From: a virus
IMG/VR virus record: IMGVR_UViG_3300046460_000106
Location: 1-26,154 of that record
Direction: 5' to 3' (one strand)
Length of the DNA: 26,154 nucleotides
The notes beneath the pieces are model-generated. The model searched no databases. It saw nothing but the letters and a program-made list of their open reading frames with translations, and had not been told where the DNA came from. Shown here piece by piece: positions 19,655-26,154 of this stretch; the stretch's first letter is position 1; each line of letters begins with the position of its first letter. The position numbers were made by a program, and so were the translations under genes.

Positions 19655-20410
19655 ATGGGTATCTTGCTGATCTCCAAGGACACTGTTGCACCATGGAATA
19701 CCAAAGTTATCGCGCCAGTAACGCGTGGCCTGGAGGCATGGTTTACATTCGATACCGACGCCGCGCGCTTCAGCTTCAACCGTGCACCAAATAAGCCGAA
19801 TGCAAAGATCGTTGGTGCGCCTGTTGCTTATTCCACGCACGGTCGCTTTACGTCACTTGTTAACTTCCTTCAGACGCAAGTTATGGATAGTGCAAAAGTG
19901 ACGATTATCGCTGTTGGCCGGTCGCCGGTAGCGCTTCCGGATCCGTTCCCGGTTCCAGATCCTCGGCCTGTTTACGCTAGTACGTTCAGTGGGCCATCGA
20001 TCACGCCTGGAATCGTGGGGACTTCGTTTGGGGTTACTCTTTCCAATAGCAGTGCGGCGCTCCTCAATTCCACAGCGGCCCGGAATAACGGGACTGGAGG
20101 CATCTCGACGGGTCAAGTTAATACAGCGGATACGCCGACTGCATGGGGGATTCGCGTCCTCCGCACCTCTGATGCCGAGGGCACCATGGTGCAGAACGTC
20201 ACTCAGGGCACCAAAACCGTCGGCACTACACTGACTCAACGAGCACTTACTGCAAACGCGTTCCGCATTGGCAGCTCAATCTCTCAATTCACGGGAGAAG
20301 TTGATATTTCTTCGATTGCAATTTATTCGGAGGCTTTGACCGACGACGAGATCGCCTTGGTTGCAGCGCGCATGAGGACTCGCATGCAGCGTCTTGGTAT
20401 TACGGTATAA
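19655..20410 (+). CDS. LamG/concanavalin-like surface protein
   Basis: 251 residues from ATG 19655; an ATG at 19649 touches the AAGGA ribosome site (19644-19648), so the second is preferred (spacer 6). Fold clues: GLEAWFTFDTDAARFSFNRAPNKP at the start and GEVDISSIAIYSEALTDDEIALVAARM at the end, the 'sugar-binding LamG jelly-roll then Asp-Glu helix' pattern seen in concanavalin-like phage tail proteins. The protein is Thr/Ser/Val-rich, as expected for a beta-sandwich. It follows the SGNH tailspike by 18 bases and is also AT-richer, so both probably form one host-range cassette. A carbohydrate-binding role is inferred. Confidence 0.7.
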   Translation: MGILLISKDTVAPWNTKVIAPVTRGLEAWFTFDTDAARFSFNRAPNKPNAKIVGAPVAYSTHGRFTSLVNFLQTQVMDSAKVTIIAVGRSPVALPDPFPVPDPRPVYASTFSGPSITPGIVGTSFGVTLSNSSAALLNSTAARNNGTGGISTGQVNTADTPTAWGIRVLRTSDAEGTMVQNVTQGTKTVGTTLTQRALTANAFRIGSSISQFTGEVDISSIAIYSEALTDDEIALVAARMRTRMQRLGITV

Positions 20411-20412
20411 AT

Positions 20413-20444
20413 AAAAAAGGCCGCTTAATTGCGGCCTTTTTTTT
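20413..20444. terminator. Bidirectional intrinsic terminator
   Basis: AAAAAA, then GGCCGC (20419-20424), loop TTAATT, GCGGCC (20431-20436), then eight T. Perfect 6-bp GC stem, with A-run on one side and T-run on the other, so it can stop transcription from both sides: the long structural operon from the left and the small minus-strand gene from the right. It starts two bases after the stop of the LamG-like gene. Confidence 0.9.
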
Positions 20445-20580
20445 ATTCCTCGAATCCTGCGTCAAGATCTTCGACTTTGGCTTTCTGAATTTCTTCTCGG
20501 ACAATTTGGCGAATTCGTTCTTCTTGAGCCTCGGTGAACACCTGAGGGAGATCGTTTGTTGCTTGAGAGTCAATGCTCAA
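20443..20580 (-). CDS. 45-residue acidic-helix protein, unknown (TTG start)
   Basis: A small minus-strand frame between the bidirectional terminator and the lysis genes. It starts with TTG at 20580-20578, seven bases after AAGGAA on the minus strand; an in-frame stop lies a few codons upstream, so this start is the only option. The 45 residues read SIDSQATNDLPQVF, then one charged helix with EEEIQK-like content (EAQEERIRQIVREEIQKAKV) and an acidic GFEE end. Its stop codon lies in the T-tract of the terminator. No family was recognised; the good ribosome site and exact fit to the terminator argue that it is real. Confidence 0.6.
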   Translation of the reverse strand: MSIDSQATNDLPQVFTEAQEERIRQIVREEIQKAKVEDLDAGFEE

Positions 20581-20759: not shown

Positions 20760-21185
20760 ATGACTGATAATGAAAAGGCCCGCGACATTCTCGCTCGTAC
20801 GCTGTGGGGCGAGGCTCGGGGCGAGGGGCTGGCCGGCCAGATAGCTGTAGCTTGGACAATCCGAAACCGCGTCGATGATGGCAGGGCCAGGTCCTGGTGG
20901 GGGGAGGGCTACGCTGGTGTGTGTCAGAAGCCATACCAATTCAGCTGCTGGAATAGGAATGACCCCAACTTCGCTTATCTGAGTGGAGCGAAGGCAATCC
21001 CGCTCCGCGAGTTTGCTCAAGCGCAGATTGCCGCTGAGCAGGTGATGTCCGGCAAGGTTCCGGATCCTACTGGCGGCGCCACGCACTATTACGCGACCGT
21101 CATGCCGAAGGCACCGGCCTGGACTGTGGGCGCAAAACGGACGCTGAAGTTAGGGCGCCACGTATTCTTCAAGGACGTTCCATGA
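20760..21185 (+). CDS. Endolysin, SleB-type cell-wall hydrolase
   Basis: 141 residues from ATG 20760, seven bases after GGAG (20749-20752); a GTG one codon earlier would put the ribosome site too near. Hydrolase_2 (SleB) family features: ILARTLWGEARGEG with likely catalytic Glu18, AVAWTIRNRVDD, the QFSCWNRNDPN motif around residue 60, and GGATHYYA near residue 105. These enzymes are lytic transglycosylase-like muramidases that cut peptidoglycan. There is no signal peptide, so export needs a holin, but none is found next to it. Its stop overlaps the Rz start. Confidence 0.85.
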   Translation: MTDNEKARDILARTLWGEARGEGLAGQIAVAWTIRNRVDDGRARSWWGEGYAGVCQKPYQFSCWNRNDPNFAYLSGAKAIPLREFAQAQIAAEQVMSGKVPDPTGGATHYYATVMPKAPAWTVGAKRTLKLGRHVFFKDVP

Positions 21186-21697
21186 CTCCCGATACATTGA
21201 AGGCGGCACTAGTCGGTGTGTTGGCGCTATTGCTGATTACCGCTGGCGGTGTGTGGAAGGTCCAGAACTGGCGCTTCGGTATGCAACTGGCCGAGCAGGC
21301 CGGTTTGCATAAGGACGATTTGGCCACCATAAGCAACGCGGCCGCTGCACAAGTGCGCGCCGATCAGGACAAGAGAATCGCGTTGGAGCAGCGCTTGTCG
21401 GCCAGCGACCAAACCCACCACAAGGCTTTGACCAATGCACAAAAAGACCAAGCTCGCCTGCGCGATCGCCTTGCCACTTCTGATTTGCGGCTGTCAGTCT
21501 TTCTTGACGCCGCCGGGTCAGGCGGTGGCTGCTCAATGCCAGCCGGTACCAGCGCCGCCGGCATGGTTCATGGAGGAACACGAGGACAACTTGACCCAGC
21601 GCATGCTCAACGAATTATCGCCATCACCGATGACGGCGATCGTGGATTGATTGCGCTCAAGGCTTGCCAAGCCTATGTGCGTGAAATTCGCCAATGA
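21182..21697 (+). CDS. Inner-membrane spanin (Rz-like)
   Basis: 171 residues, ATGA overlap with the endolysin. The N-terminus has one membrane helix (LKAALVGVLALLLITAGGVW, residues about 5-24) and is followed by a periplasmic charged helix (residues 40-105, rich in Gln, Ala, Asp, Arg), the i-spanin topology. A Gly/Ser/Cys loop (AAGSGGGCSMPAG) and a short C-terminal helical domain follow. With the nested Rz1 lipoprotein it would span the periplasm and fuse inner and outer membranes in the last lysis step. Confidence 0.82.
   Translation: MTPDTLKAALVGVLALLLITAGGVWKVQNWRFGMQLAEQAGLHKDDLATISNAAAAQVRADQDKRIALEQRLSASDQTHHKALTNAQKDQARLRDRLATSDLRLSVFLDAAGSGGGCSMPAGTSAAGMVHGGTRGQLDPAHAQRIIAITDDGDRGLIALKACQAYVREIRQ
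21435..21650 (+). CDS. Outer-membrane spanin lipoprotein (Rz1-like), nested in Rz
   Basis: 71 residues wholly inside the Rz-like gene in another frame. Signal: MHKKTKLACAIALPLLICGC with a lipobox ending ICGC, acylated at Cys20, cut by signal peptidase II. The mature part is short and has a Pro-rich stretch (PVPAPPAWF), both hallmarks of Rz1. A nested Rz/Rz1 arrangement like lambda's is evidence that both are true genes. Confidence 0.85.
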   Translation: MHKKTKLACAIALPLLICGCQSFLTPPGQAVAAQCQPVPAPPAWFMEEHEDNLTQRMLNELSPSPMTAIVD

Positions 21698-21738
21698 GCC
21701 GTAGAGTGCACGAACGCTATACAAATACCCTCTCTCTC

Positions 21739-21766
21739 TTGACTACCGTATCGCGTAGTATTTAAC
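21739..21766 (+). promoter_or_regulatory. Putative sigma-70 promoter of the HEPN gene, with inverted repeat
   Basis: TTGACT (21739-21744), 16 bases, then TTTAAC (21761-21766); the -35 is good, the -10 moderate. Inside the spacer ACTAC (21742-21746) and GTAGT (21755-21759) form an inverted repeat overlapping the -35, which could be a repressor operator. A CT-repeat precedes it. It would let the accessory gene be expressed apart from the late operon. Positions are by eye. Confidence 0.45.
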
Positions 21767-21797
21767 TTTTCGCCATAAATGTCAGGGAGGGGGTTTC

Positions 21798-22568
21798 TTG
21801 GAAAAGCTGATGCGCAGGCTAATGGAATTAAAGGTACTAAGTGAAAATCTCAGTTCTCGGCTGTGCGAGAGTCATGAAGTGATACATAACTTTATGCCTA
21901 TAAGCGGGCTAAACATGGCTCACAACCATATTGTTTATGCTTATGAGGTGGCGAGTTACTATAGGTCCGTTTTGCCAATGCCTTCGCGGGGGAGTTTGGA
22001 GGACTTCATGCGAGACGAGCCAGAGTCAACTGAACGCATTAATGTAATGTTAAATTCCTGTTATATATCCATTTTATCTTCTTTAGAGTCGTGCGCGCGT
22101 AAAGCGATTCAAACGGCTGTGCACTTATATGGTCATGTTGGAAATACAATACATCTCAATAATATTATGCAGAGAAGTCGGAAGCTTGGGTGGATAAGCG
22201 ATTCTGATGAGTTGATGTGGTTGAACCTTGTTAAAATTCGAAACTATATGGTGCACAATAATGGTGAGGGGCAAAGAAATGAGTGGTTCGCATTGCCTAG
22301 CGGGTTGATTTGGGAAACTCGCATCGGACTGCAGTCCCAAGTAACACTAAGGCACGTTCCCGAAAGCTTGAAGTGGATTTTGTTAGCTTATGCGAACTGG
22401 TGTGATGAGTTCATGAAACGATGGAACGCGGCGTTCGACTATAGCCCAAAATGGAATAAGCCTTATTCCTATCACTTGAGTGCTACTCGGGTAATTCCTC
22501 AGATGGGTGGGGATACATGGGCGGGTTATGGAGCCTGGTCGTGGCGCGAGCAGCCTCCAAACAGGTGA
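21798..22568 (+). CDS. HEPN-like candidate RNase, accessory (moron) gene
   Basis: 256 residues from TTG 21798, chosen because GGGAGG ends seven bases upstream; ATG 21810 is the alternative. The gene is clearly AT-richer than the phage genes around it (runs such as TTATATATCC), and has its own promoter-like sequence, both signs of a late-acquired gene. The protein is mostly helical. At residues 148-154 it has RNYMVHN following LNLVKI, a match to the RNxxxH motif by which HEPN RNases and toxins cleave RNA. A preceding helix (SILSSLESCARKAIQTAV) fits a four-helix HEPN bundle. Lysogen-encoded HEPN proteins often cause abortive infection, so defence against other phages is a likely role. No partner gene is seen. 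Confidence 0.55.
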   Translation: MEKLMRRLMELKVLSENLSSRLCESHEVIHNFMPISGLNMAHNHIVYAYEVASYYRSVLPMPSRGSLEDFMRDEPESTERINVMLNSCYISILSSLESCARKAIQTAVHLYGHVGNTIHLNNIMQRSRKLGWISDSDELMWLNLVKIRNYMVHNNGEGQRNEWFALPSGLIWETRIGLQSQVTLRHVPESLKWILLAYANWCDEFMKRWNAAFDYSPKWNKPYSYHLSATRVIPQMGGDTWAGYGAWSWREQPPNR

Positions 22569-22577
22569 GGCAGTTAC

Positions 22578-23273
22578 TTAGAACAAGCCGTCTTCCTCGG
22601 CTGGCTTGATCAAATCAGGCCCCTGATTGCGCACATTTCCAATCGCGCGGTCAACCTTGAACCACTCGAACGCCTCAGTTGGCTCGCCCTGGTGCATCAC
22701 CATCACTTCGGCGCGCTCCTTTGGCGTGGCCGGGTCGAGCCATTCGCGGGCCAGTTCTGGCGATAGCGTCACAGGGCGCCGGTCGTGGATATCGACCATC
22801 CCACCGGCGCTGTCGGCGGTGATTATCACGAAGCCGTCGTGCTCGCTGGGCCCGTGCTCGGCGTGTGGATATTGGCCGATCAAAGCGCACAGGATTGGCG
22901 CCCGGTCCCGCCGGCGGATGAGGTAGGGCTGCTTCTTCGGTCCGCCTTCATCCACCCATTCAAACCAGTTGTTGATTGCGATGATTGCCCGGTGCGGCCA
23001 GATGGCACGGAAGAACGGCCCGTGGGCGACTTTCTCCACCCTGGCATTGATCGGTGCTGCGCGGTCCTTGGCCCAGTGCGGGCGCCATCCCCAGCGCACC
23101 ATGTCGGCGTGCAGATATTCTCCTTCCTGGTGGAAGATGGCGAGCTGGGTTGTAGGGGCAGCGTTGTACCGCTCGAACGGTTGGTCACCGACGCTGTTTA
23201 CCAGAGGGTTTGGCATGCTGAGTGCCGCCACGAAATCGTGGATGCCATCGTATTGAGAAAGTCGTCCGCACAT
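22578..23273 (-). CDS. yedK: SRAP-domain abasic-site DNA-protein crosslink protein (YedK/HMCES-like)
   Basis: 231 residues starting MCGRLSQY. All key SRAP features are present: Cys2 at the mature N-terminus, which forms a thiazolidine link to abasic sites in single-stranded DNA, RYNAAPT (Asn37), the active Glu105 in NNWFEWVD and His163 in DIHDRRP, with NARVEK about residue 76-81. The family shields abasic sites at replication forks. It overlaps no neighbour; the coiled-coil gene ends two bases upstream of its start, with AGAGGGG as ribosome site, so the two form an operon. A LexA box lies at the head of this operon. A longer frame to 23675 is rejected, as it runs through the neighbouring gene. 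Confidence 0.88.
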   Translation of the reverse strand: MCGRLSQYDGIHDFVAALSMPNPLVNSVGDQPFERYNAAPTTQLAIFHQEGEYLHADMVRWGWRPHWAKDRAAPINARVEKVAHGPFFRAIWPHRAIIAINNWFEWVDEGGPKKQPYLIRRRDRAPILCALIGQYPHAEHGPSEHDGFVIITADSAGGMVDIHDRRPVTLSPELAREWLDPATPKERAEVMVMHQGEPTEAFEWFKVDRAIGNVRNQGPDLIKPAEEDGLF

Positions 23274-24110: not shown

Positions 24111-24158
24111 AGCATGGGGTGCTAGGGGTCGAGTGTTCGAATCACTCCGTCCCGACCA
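24111..24158 (+). other. Prophage attachment site: 3' half of tRNA-Pro(GGG)
   Basis: The stretch has the anticodon loop ATGGGGT (anticodon GGG), GCTAGGGGTC, a T-arm with GAGTG-TTCGAAT-CACTC, acceptor strand CGTCCCG, discriminator A and CCA (24156-24158). No D-arm or 5' acceptor strand lies upstream, and the 5' anticodon stem strand (CAAGC) pairs imperfectly with GCTAG, so the tRNA is cut within the anticodon stem. This is the duplicated 3' end left when a phage integrates in a tRNA gene. The intact tRNA-Pro should be at the left end of the prophage, outside the window, reading in the same direction. The core limits are approximate. Confidence 0.85.
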
Positions 24159-24166
24159 TATAATTC

Positions 24167-24202
24167 AAGGGGTTGTGAGATTTTATCTTGCGACCCTTTT
24201 TT
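24167..24202 (+). terminator. Native tRNA terminator just after the att site
   Basis: AAGGGGTTGTGAGAT (24167-24181), loop TTT, ATCTTGCGACCCTT (24185-24198) and a T-run. The arms pair over 14 base pairs with one bulged G and some G-T pairs. It lies nine bases after CCA and would be the original terminator of the tRNA-Pro gene, now left behind the prophage. This places the host boundary at about 24158. Confidence 0.75.
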
Positions 24203-24365: not shown

Positions 24366-25169
24366 TCAGCTTTTGCTGTGGGAGTAGCTGATGGCGACTA
24401 CTTGCCTCGCTCGCTCTGAAAGACCTCCTGAGCGTTGCAATGCAATTGATTTGTCGATTTTTTTCTCAAGTTCCGGATAAAAATCCATTACGAGGAGACG
24501 TAACCGATCTAGAAGTTTAGGATCATTTTTAAGCTGGTCTCGTAAGTGGACTGCGTAACCGTAGTTGGAAGTTAAGGCATCGTCGGGCGCAAATGCCCGC
24601 ATCCACTTCAGCATGATATCTGCGTCCCCTCCGAAATTTATCAGCAGGTCGATGTAGCGAATCAGCTGGGCCGAAGCGTTATAAAGTGTATATCTGTTGA
24701 TGTCTAAGATGGACGTTTGATGTTCGACTGCGATCTTCTTGATGTCCTTCCATCCCTCACTGAGCTGGAAGGATCCTTTCATACTTACAGAGATTGTTTT
24801 GGCGGTGGGTTTACGTGGGGTCAAATGATCCTGTTCGACAGGTAGCGCCCGAATGGCTGCGGTAGTGACATTTACGTCGATCAGTAGCACGGGAATTAAC
24901 GAAACAGACAAATAACGCGCGGTCGTGGACTTCAGGCGGATTTTACCTCTATCAGTCCTGGTTCCTTTGATCTGCAATCGTATAAGTCCGCCGGTCACTG
25001 AGCCTCGCTTCTTGACAATCTCAATTTCCGCGTCCAGACCGTAGTCTTTTGGTAAGTCTCTATAAATCCAGCCTTTTTTTGCAACGGCTTTTTTTACTAA
25101 AGCGGTTGCTTGATCGTCAACTACATGGGACTTCGTTCTCATAGGAAGATTTTCTGTCATTAGGTCCAT
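24366..25169 (-). CDS. DUF4365 nuclease-like protein, candidate defence gene
   Basis: 267 residues. The N-terminal 100 residues match DUF4365: DDQATALVKKAVAKKGWIYRDLPKDYGLDAEIEIV, then LIRLQIKGT. Acidic residues (Asp46, Glu48/50) and the Gln66-x-Lys68 motif fit a PD-(D/E)xK nuclease core, found in many defence proteins. The rest (ISVSMKGSFQLSEGWKDIKKI, then helical to the end) is of unknown role. Three possible starts (25169, 25160, 25142) are present, none with a strong ribosome site; the first is listed. It is AT-richer than the prophage. It lies divergently from a DEAH helicase across 231 bases, so the two may form one system. Confidence 0.7.
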   Translation of the reverse strand: MDLMTENLPMRTKSHVVDDQATALVKKAVAKKGWIYRDLPKDYGLDAEIEIVKKRGSVTGGLIRLQIKGTRTDRGKIRLKSTTARYLSVSLIPVLLIDVNVTTAAIRALPVEQDHLTPRKPTAKTISVSMKGSFQLSEGWKDIKKIAVEHQTSILDINRYTLYNASAQLIRYIDLLINFGGDADIMLKWMRAFAPDDALTSNYGYAVHLRDQLKNDPKLLDRLRLLVMDFYPELEKKIDKSIALQRSGGLSERARQVVAISYSHSKS

Positions 25170-25400
25170 CTAACTCTGTCTCTTGCGCTTGTTGGAGGAG
25201 GGACATTCAATGCCGTTTTATTTTTGATCACTGGATAAAATGACGCATGTTTATTAGCTAACTACAAATGATCTCTGCAGGCCGGTGGTGATCAGTCGTC
25301 GGTGCTGAATTCACTTGCCCCGCAACCCAACCACACCCTTACCACTTGCACAAAAACGGCACCAGAGTACGCTTCAATCGGATCCAAAGGAGGGATTGCG
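25170..25400. other. Divergent intergenic region
   Basis: 231 bases between the two divergent genes. AT-rich part at about 25215-25265 (TTTTATTTTTGATC, GATAAAAT, TTAGCTAA) is the likely location of promoters, but no pair could be assigned with confidence. AAGGAGG at 25386-25392 serves the helicase gene. Confidence 0.5.
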
Positions 25401-26154
25401 GTGCCGAATTTTTTTGTTGAGCAAGCGGGGACGCTGAATCTGTTTCAACAGCAGCGTACTCCCAATCATGGATTCAGACCTGGACAGTTGGGTGCGTTGC
25501 ACGCAGTTTTGGCGCATTTTTCCGTGCAGGACGACCCTGCCATCGTCTGTTTGCCCACTGGCTATGGAAAGACCTCCTTGATGATGGCGCTTCCCATGCT
25601 GCTGGGGCCGGCGCGTGTACTGATAGTGGAACCTTCAAGCGCCTTGAGAAAACAGGTGCATTCACATATTTCGGTCATGTCCACACTCCGCCGGATTGGT
25701 GCGCTAGCTGAAGATTGTCCGCTTCCCGACGTGCACCTGCATATCGGCCGTCCTCAATCCCTTGAAGAATGGCAATTGCTTCAAGCCTACGACGTCGTCG
25801 TTTCGACACCTTCGAGCTCATCACCCGACCTAGCCCCTGGTGCGCCGTCGGATCTCTTCGATCTTGTGATCTTCGATGAAGCCCATCATGCTCCGGCCGA
25901 TTCCTGGATGGCCTACGTAGAACACTTCACAAAAGCTCGGTTCTTGTTTCTCACGGCAACGCCCTTTCGACGAGATGGGCGCGTCATTCCAGGGAAGCTC
26001 GTTTATCGATATCCGGTAATGCGGGCTGTCGATGAGGGGGCCTTTGAGCCAATTAACTTCTGTGCGGCACCGATCGAGGACGAACTCGATGATGAACACG
26101 TTGATCAAGCCATAGCTCGGGCGGCTGTTCAGCAGCTTAACGAGGACAGGGAAA
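25401..26154 (+). CDS. SF2 DEAD/DEAH-box helicase, N-terminal part (cut by window edge)
   Basis: 251 codons are visible from GTG 25401, with AAGGAGG seven or eight bases upstream; the gene continues beyond the window. Motifs: FRPGQ (Q-like motif, about 25-29), Walker A PTGYGKTS (52-59), Ia region VLIVEPSSALRKQ, DEAHH (159-163), and LTATPFRRDG (motif III, about 184-193). This order is that of SF2 helicases seen in restriction and defence systems. The second RecA lobe and any extra domains are outside. With the DUF4365-like nuclease beside it, a nuclease-helicase defence locus is plausible; the exact family is not known. Confidence 0.85.
   Translation, partial: MPNFFVEQAGTLNLFQQQRTPNHGFRPGQLGALHAVLAHFSVQDDPAIVCLPTGYGKTSLMMALPMLLGPARVLIVEPSSALRKQVHSHISVMSTLRRIGALAEDCPLPDVHLHIGRPQSLEEWQLLQAYDVVVSTPSSSSPDLAPGAPSDLFDLVIFDEAHHAPADSWMAYVEHFTKARFLFLTATPFRRDGRVIPGKLVYRYPVMRAVDEGAFEPINFCAAPIEDELDDEHVDQAIARAAVQQLNEDRE

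Follow-up and report, generated by a model that had tools for sequence, protein, structure and literature searches.

The HEPN-like gene and its prophage setting

The window, by which we mean the whole stretch of DNA analysed, is the 26-kb virus record IMGVR_UViG_3300046460_000106 (26,154 nt). Genes for a head maturation protease and a baseplate wedge subunit are located at 1.1 kb and 12.5 kb, respectively, a terminase-like domain at 16–17.7 kb, and a cell-wall hydrolase of the endolysin type together with an Rz-like spanin at 20.8–21.7 kb. The spanin gene (21182..21697, + strand; phrog_2466, E = 6e-55) forms the upstream border of a variable slot, and a genome scan placed 59 of 59 spanin relatives in Pseudomonas records. 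The downstream border is a convergent gene (22578..23273, − strand; PF02586, E = 4e-45) for an SOS response associated peptidase (SRAP), whose start we set at the ATG preceding CGRL. Between them, 100 bp after the spanin gene and 9 bp before the SRAP gene, an ORF at 21798..22568 (+ strand) encodes a 256-residue protein that we predict, from the ORF, its homologue, and profile-profile and structural matches, to be a metal-independent RNase of the HEPN superfamily. No known defence-system gene was recognised beside this HEPN-like gene on the prophage, and a consensus scan of positions 21400–22700 found no terminator-like site. Two minor features accompany the lysis genes. By eye, a lipoprotein-like ORF (LLICGCQS; 21435–21650, + strand) overlaps the spanin gene in a different frame, as an Rz1-type outer spanin would, and a stretch before the endolysin gene (20340–20445, + strand) gave three Rfam matches below the gathering score (OrzO-P and the Trp and Thr leaders), possibly reflecting a terminator-like hairpin.

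Further downstream, the 3′ end of a tRNA-Pro gene (24112..24168, + strand), comprising 57 bases that are identical in six Pseudomonas phage records, is the probable attachment core. A 33-base part of this core is the 3′ end of tRNA-Pro(ggg) in one locus (L101) and is present in 14 of 230 loci. The prophage lies to the left of 24112..24168 and host DNA probably to the right. If this is taken as the attachment site, the HEPN-like gene, approximately 1.5 kb away, belongs to the prophage's last accessory region. Past the site, at 24366–26154, there is a DUF4365 gene (− strand; PF14280, E = 2e-13; PADLOC Aga_REase-PNTD1-PNTD2, E = 2e-7), and the start only of a ResIII/DEAD helicase gene (+ strand) is also found beyond it. 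These two genes are probably host DNA, and possibly a host defence locus adjoining the tRNA-Pro site.

The GC content of the HEPN-like gene is 45%, versus 47–63% in 1-kb windows of the record, which agrees with a preliminary description of the gene as AT-rich; the length of 256 residues and the RNYMVHN motif given there were also recovered, the latter at residues 148–154. The start given there, 21739, had to be corrected, as it is that of an upstream TTGACT hexamer; the gene itself begins at 21798 with a TTG codon. One clear homologue, a protein of 260 aa that is 54% identical over its whole length, was found in another Pseudomonas prophage (L141) in a draw of 398 genomes of one genus, and is identical to the protein of the prophage record L162. 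Since the two proteins align without an internal gap from the same TTG start, with 61% identity between the gene DNAs, the HEPN-like gene is real and conserved in its coding sequence. Over residues 216–256, the proteins of the two phages share 56% identity.

The upstream DNA of the two phages has mostly diverged, with two notable exceptions, the TTGACT hexamer and a stretch in L162 that resembles the 3′ end of a spanin gene. TTGACT lies 59 nt upstream of the TTG start in the window and 57 nt upstream in the homologous prophage. By eye, a second hexamer follows it at 17 nt in the homologue, where it reads TCTAAT, and at 16 nt in the window, where it is the poorer TTTAAC. From this upstream alignment, with the spacing judged by eye, we mark TTGACT-N16-TTTAAC (21739..21766, + strand) as a putative promoter. 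The suggestion that the gene is self-promoted is therefore upheld insofar as both phages share TTGACT, but a consensus scan found no + strand promoter in the intergenic stretch. Also by eye, a Shine-Dalgarno-like sequence, GGGAGGGGG (21784..21792, + strand), is located 5 nt upstream of the TTG start, and AGGAG precedes the TTG start of the homologue in L162. The second exception, at L162:7850–7900 directly before the homologue, resembles the spanin gene of the window at its 3′ end, even though L162 also possesses an entire spanin gene 2 kb upstream. This stretch is most simply read as the end of a neighbouring spanin gene, carried along when the accessory gene moved. Downstream of the homologue, L162 has a GNAT gene where the window has SRAP, and a D12 methyltransferase gene and two small ORFs, which have no Pfam match at E 0.01, lie upstream.

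The family is rare, with one further prophage carrying a homologue in what was searched. No relative of the window protein was returned by a single-sequence search of genome contigs and viral contigs, by tblastn of phages and plasmids, or by blastn of E. coli genomes and phages, and the homologue used as a query against plasmids and phages gave no match. Used as queries in viral scans, A1, A2, A3 and the homologue each led to the same single prophage, and no further full-length relative emerged when the profile was run over overlapping draws of class (369), family (398) and phylum (398) genomes. The 45 other rows of the 398-genome draw (43 genomes, E 0.03–0.90) were treated as chance, with no relative in the frames inspected for L142, L143 and L148. 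Genomes with related spanins were likewise negative (0 of 32), as were the 139 other loci of two spanin scans (L002–L140; tblastn, best E 0.14), several of which end shortly after the spanin. Related phages thus mostly manage without the HEPN-like gene.

Relationship to HEPN proteins

HEPN domains are described in PMC3710099 as all-alpha folds of two helical hairpins, with an Rx4-6H motif, a polar residue (N, D or H) after the arginine and, often, an upstream Ex3[KR]. The window protein has these sequence features: R148-N-Y-M-V-H153 (22239..22256, + strand) is a putative catalytic Rx4H motif with a polar residue after the arginine (R148-N149-x3-H153), which aligns with the RNxxxH of HepT families, and E97-S-C-A-R101 (22086..22100, + strand), identical in the homologue, places the upstream acidic residue in an Ex3[KR] motif (E97-x3-R101) in both sequences. 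R148, N149, H153, E97 and R101 are unchanged in the homologue, which keeps the pattern R148-N-Y-x-V-H153; the motif is therefore conserved, in the single homologue found, and its conservation is that of two sequences. In shuffles of the window protein, RNx3H occurred in 4.7% and R[NDH]x3-5H in 24%, and Ex3[KR] is found at five places in the protein, three of which are common to the homologue. As RNx3H is not rare by chance and Ex3[KR] is a common pattern, the motif carries little weight by itself, and other support was sought.

The window protein had no Pfam match at E 5 and no PADLOC match at E 10, and in PHROGs it gave three rows of unknown function (E 0.4–0.6). Across Pfam, NCBIfam, PADLOC and PHROGs the only named-family matches of the two proteins were to HepT, none of which reached a curated cut-off: NF047751 (HepT) matched both members at E = 0.14, with 12 bits versus a cut-off of 60, and PF01934 (HepT-like) matched the homologue only, at E = 0.027. 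There was no PF08780 row for either protein, and the PDB sequence searches returned one chance-level row each. When a two-row profile was run over the 369 class genomes, the next match after the homologue was a HepT protein (L163; E = 0.011, an unremarkable value with 369 genomes), identified as such by PF08780 (E = 2e-35), and its LGWIS...W...RNxxxH register matches HepT. Two weak rows of the same search, L164 and L165, are not HEPN-like. Another locus, L166, appeared HepT-like by eye but had no Pfam match at E 0.01 and was not counted as evidence.

The RNxxxH motif of HepT is established, and we compared the two-member profile with three groups of HepT sequences using hhalign. The groups were drawn from 60 loci, 47 of which had a frame with an R[NDE]..H-type motif (24 of 30 and 23 of 30). 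Five loci with broken or wrong frames (L175, L187, L194, L198 and L209) were left out and L197, also marked as suspect, was kept by the group rule; sequences were cut to the last 150 residues, giving final groups of 22, 11 and 9. The scores were 30.7, 30.3 and 28.4 with the motif in register, a register that is partly built in because the frame filter requires the motif. Shuffles gave means of 12.7, 12.6 and 13.7, and none of 200 reached the observed score in any group; reversed profiles scored 12.2, 18.7 and 12.8. The hhalign probabilities were 19–39%. Masking seven motif residues lowered the scores to 19.3, 14.4 and 21.3, indicating that the motif carries much of the signal. In single-sequence controls with 162 ORFs found after spanins, possible HEPN proteins included, no protein reached the score of the window protein in two HepT groups, and 21 of 162 did so in the third.

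An AlphaFold model built from the two-row alignment had a mean pLDDT of 60 and a pTM of 0.64, with pLDDT below 50 at residues 154–182 and 213–256; a single-sequence model (pLDDT 42) was discarded. The best-modelled part is the first helix (residues 2–26), and the HEPN-like alignment spans approximately residues 28–212. Foldseek found no match at E 0.001. Ranked by E-value, its first two matches are unrelated proteins, She2p (probability 0.38) and a GPCR complex (0.23), and the highest probabilities, 0.97, 0.90 and 0.90, belong to HepT-type chains at E 0.35–0.5. A viral structure library gave nothing above a probability of 0.63 among the best 50 matches listed. In VIA, ranks 1–13 were all HepT-type chains (Z 10.2–11.4), including 1jog, 6m6u and 5yep; 1jog and 1ylm, the titles of which lack 'HEPN', we take to be HepT-type chains. 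The first unrelated VIA chain is a rhodopsin at Z 10.2, so that the best Z of 11.4 is about 1 above it and in the range flagged for helical bundles. The HEPN bundle anticipated for this protein is thus favoured by the HepT-type chains being the best VIA matches, but tempered by the pLDDT of 60 and by unrelated bundles scoring only about 1 Z lower. The tail (residues 213–256) is rich in aromatic residues and glycine and is modelled without confident structure; together with the first helix, it is a candidate for sensing or restraint.

Taken together, the library, profile-profile and structural lines, none of which is conclusive alone, make a HEPN fold highly probable. By sequence profile and a low-confidence model the gene is HEPN-like, and it sits in a variable accessory region. 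We accept the protein as a HEPN RNase, with its RNase activity predicted, of a family absent from the searched libraries.

Comparison with known systems and possible function

As described in PMC11087260, Tha is a single-gene HEPN defence of S. aureus prophages, a non-specific RNase with RNxxxH that is triggered by tail proteins, and its autoimmunity is prevented by an antisense inhibitor gene, ith. Tha-1 of phage 80alpha is, like the window protein, a prophage-encoded single HEPN protein with RNxxxH; it is 301 aa long, carries R265-NSIM-H270 and, in that account, no other recognised domain, and its AlphaFold model resembles HEPN-MNT toxins (PMC11087260). The HEPN domain of Tha is reported there as C-terminal (184–296), whereas the motif of the window protein is central, with approximately 100 residues after it, and the Tha gene is given as being under the cI promoter with ith antisense, whereas the window gene follows lysis genes. 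Homology to Tha was rejected, as no sequence similarity between the window protein and Tha-1 was detectable (BLASTP best E 2.3; hhalign probability 0.3%). An antisense ORF of 71 codons with a TTG start lies opposite the HEPN core in the window (22125–22340, − strand), and an antisense ORF of 61 codons covers the corresponding place in L141; the ORF at 22125–22340 may have arisen by chance or may be an inhibitor gene of the Tha type.

HepT, the HEPN-MNT toxin of type VII TA systems (PF01934/PF08780/NF047751), shares the W...RNxxxH register with the window protein and provides its best structural matches, but is approximately 130 aa long versus 256 aa. The tyrosine of the HepT Rx4HxY is the AMPylated residue. 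In place of the H-x-Y of HepT, the window protein and its homologue have H153-N154-N155, without a tyrosine. No MNT gene adjoins either copy, the neighbours being spanin and SRAP in the window and GNAT, D12 methyltransferase and two ORFs in L162. Membership in HepT was therefore rejected, on the missing tyrosine, the missing MNT gene and scores far below the family cut-offs. AbiF is one of the HEPN families surveyed in PMC3710099, and AbiF/Abi_2 of a C. difficile prophage is described as a phage-borne toxic abortive-infection protein (PMC12373285), like the role proposed here. Abi_2 was rejected as well, as neither the window protein nor the homologue had an Abi_2 row in Pfam at E 10.

We consider the best explanation, with a probability of approximately 60%, to be that the gene encodes a solitary prophage-borne HEPN effector of abortive infection that would work like Tha without sequence similarity to it. 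Abortive infection is plausible from the location of the gene, its solitary state and the Tha precedent, and we infer the RNase activity, the dimer, the promoter, the trigger and the defence role. On this proposal, the HEPN endoribonuclease gene would be an accessory gene of a Pseudomonas prophage. In the lysogen the protein would be made from its own promoter and held inactive, and when another phage infects, a phage product would switch on the dimeric RNase, which would then cut cellular and phage RNA, halting the cell and aborting the infection in the manner of Tha. The direction of the gene raises the question of self-harm, as the prophage's own late transcripts would run into it. Its co-directionality with the late lysis genes speaks against the proposal to the extent that read-through would have to be tolerated in the prophage's own lytic cycle. 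Self-harm might be avoided if the RNase rises only once lysis is due, or if the phage lacks or blocks the trigger.

That this would be an undescribed abortive-infection system, as had been suggested, applies to the family, within the searched libraries and literature, and not to the kind, as single-gene HEPN defence on prophages has already been described. In the literature searched, which covered few subscription journals, no description of the HEPN-like family or of the spanin-SRAP slot was found. If the reading is true, it adds a compact family, absent from the searched libraries, to the single-gene HEPN systems of prophages, and it opens to testing the question of how a phage can keep an RNase gene as the last of its late operon without harm to its own burst.

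Three other explanations were weighed against abortive infection. The protein could be the HEPN toxin of a TA or addiction module with an unrecognised antitoxin, protein or RNA, stabilising the prophage without an anti-phage role. The nearest families, HepT, are TA toxins, an RNA restrains the AbiF of a C. difficile prophage according to PMC12373285, and the two small ORFs without an assigned role in L162 leave room for an antitoxin. However, neither copy adjoins an MNT gene, the downstream neighbour is not the same in the two phages, and Rfam at E 1 gave no match near the gene in either the window or L162, and we regard a TA toxin as unlikely. Slightly less likely again is a HEPN-fold protein that binds or processes RNA and tunes host or phage transcripts, as a regulator or in lysis timing, and is no defence effector. 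The position of the gene directly behind the lysis genes in the same direction would suit such a role, and HEPN proteins without RNase roles exist (PMC3710099). Against it, the complete Rx4H, the polar residue after the arginine and the kept Ex3R form the pattern of predicted active HEPN RNases as set out in PMC3710099, and none of the 139 other spanin loci, several of which end shortly after the spanin, encodes a relative.

Least probable of the three, in our estimate, is that the protein is not HEPN at all but an unrelated helical protein in which RNxxxH arose by chance. The frequency of RNx3H in shuffles and the five occurrences of Ex3[KR] leave room for this, as do the low model confidence and the middling scores that helical bundles obtain against many folds. 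The profile-profile controls, the restriction of named-family matches to HepT and the best structural scores being those of HepT-type chains all argue against it.

Variation in the slot behind the spanin gene

For P2-like phages and others, it is established that prophages carry hotspots of anti-phage genes flanked by conserved phage genes (PMC9122126). In 24 loci, the gap, counted from where the spanin match stops to where the SRAP match begins, measured 2–976 bp, with some lengths being upper estimates because several SRAP matches are partial; seven gaps were shorter than 230 bp and 17 were at least 350 bp, 12 of these 17 having a GC content of 39–45%. The count excludes the window itself and L092, in which SRAP precedes the spanin, and it includes two pairs of loci (L029/L030 and L041/L087) that each appear to represent a single piece of DNA. 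The occupants of the slot vary between phages, and include membrane proteins, by eye (L021, L029 and L033), small proteins and others.

HEPN-like motifs were also found in several ORFs located after the spanin, these being considered whether or not SRAP follows. Among 35 clusters of AT-rich ORFs of at least 150 aa within 1.5 kb after the spanin, R[NDH]x3H was present in six versus 1.2 in shuffles (2000 shuffles, P 0.002), and a looser form in eight versus 3.5 (P 0.015). This enrichment is a lead only, as it was counted after some of the proteins had been seen and two of the six strict matches are, by eye, not HEPN-like (L037, resolvase-like; L048, membrane-like). Ten motif-bearing slot proteins gave no match in PADLOC at E 0.5. 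It is conceivable, though we hold it doubtful, that the slot between the lysis genes and the tRNA-Pro site is an exchange site for several unrelated and undescribed one-gene HEPN RNase defences, whose place as the last gene would give late expression and make an RNase low in cost at lysis. Were this true, late RNase expression would be another answer to autoimmunity than the antisense inhibitor of Tha, and more such genes might be findable in this accessory region of Pseudomonas prophages by position rather than by similarity.

Five further slot genes are AT-rich and carry HEPN-like motifs. Library matches below the cut-off were obtained for L079:6519–7538 (DUF4145, E 0.06; RiboL-PSP-HEPN, E 0.11), L055:6626–7360 (HEPN_Apea, E 0.10) and L070:6498–7451 (a weak MauJ match, E 0.002), while L088:7242–8108 and L040:4920–5648 have the motif only. 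All five are candidates for undescribed HEPN families.
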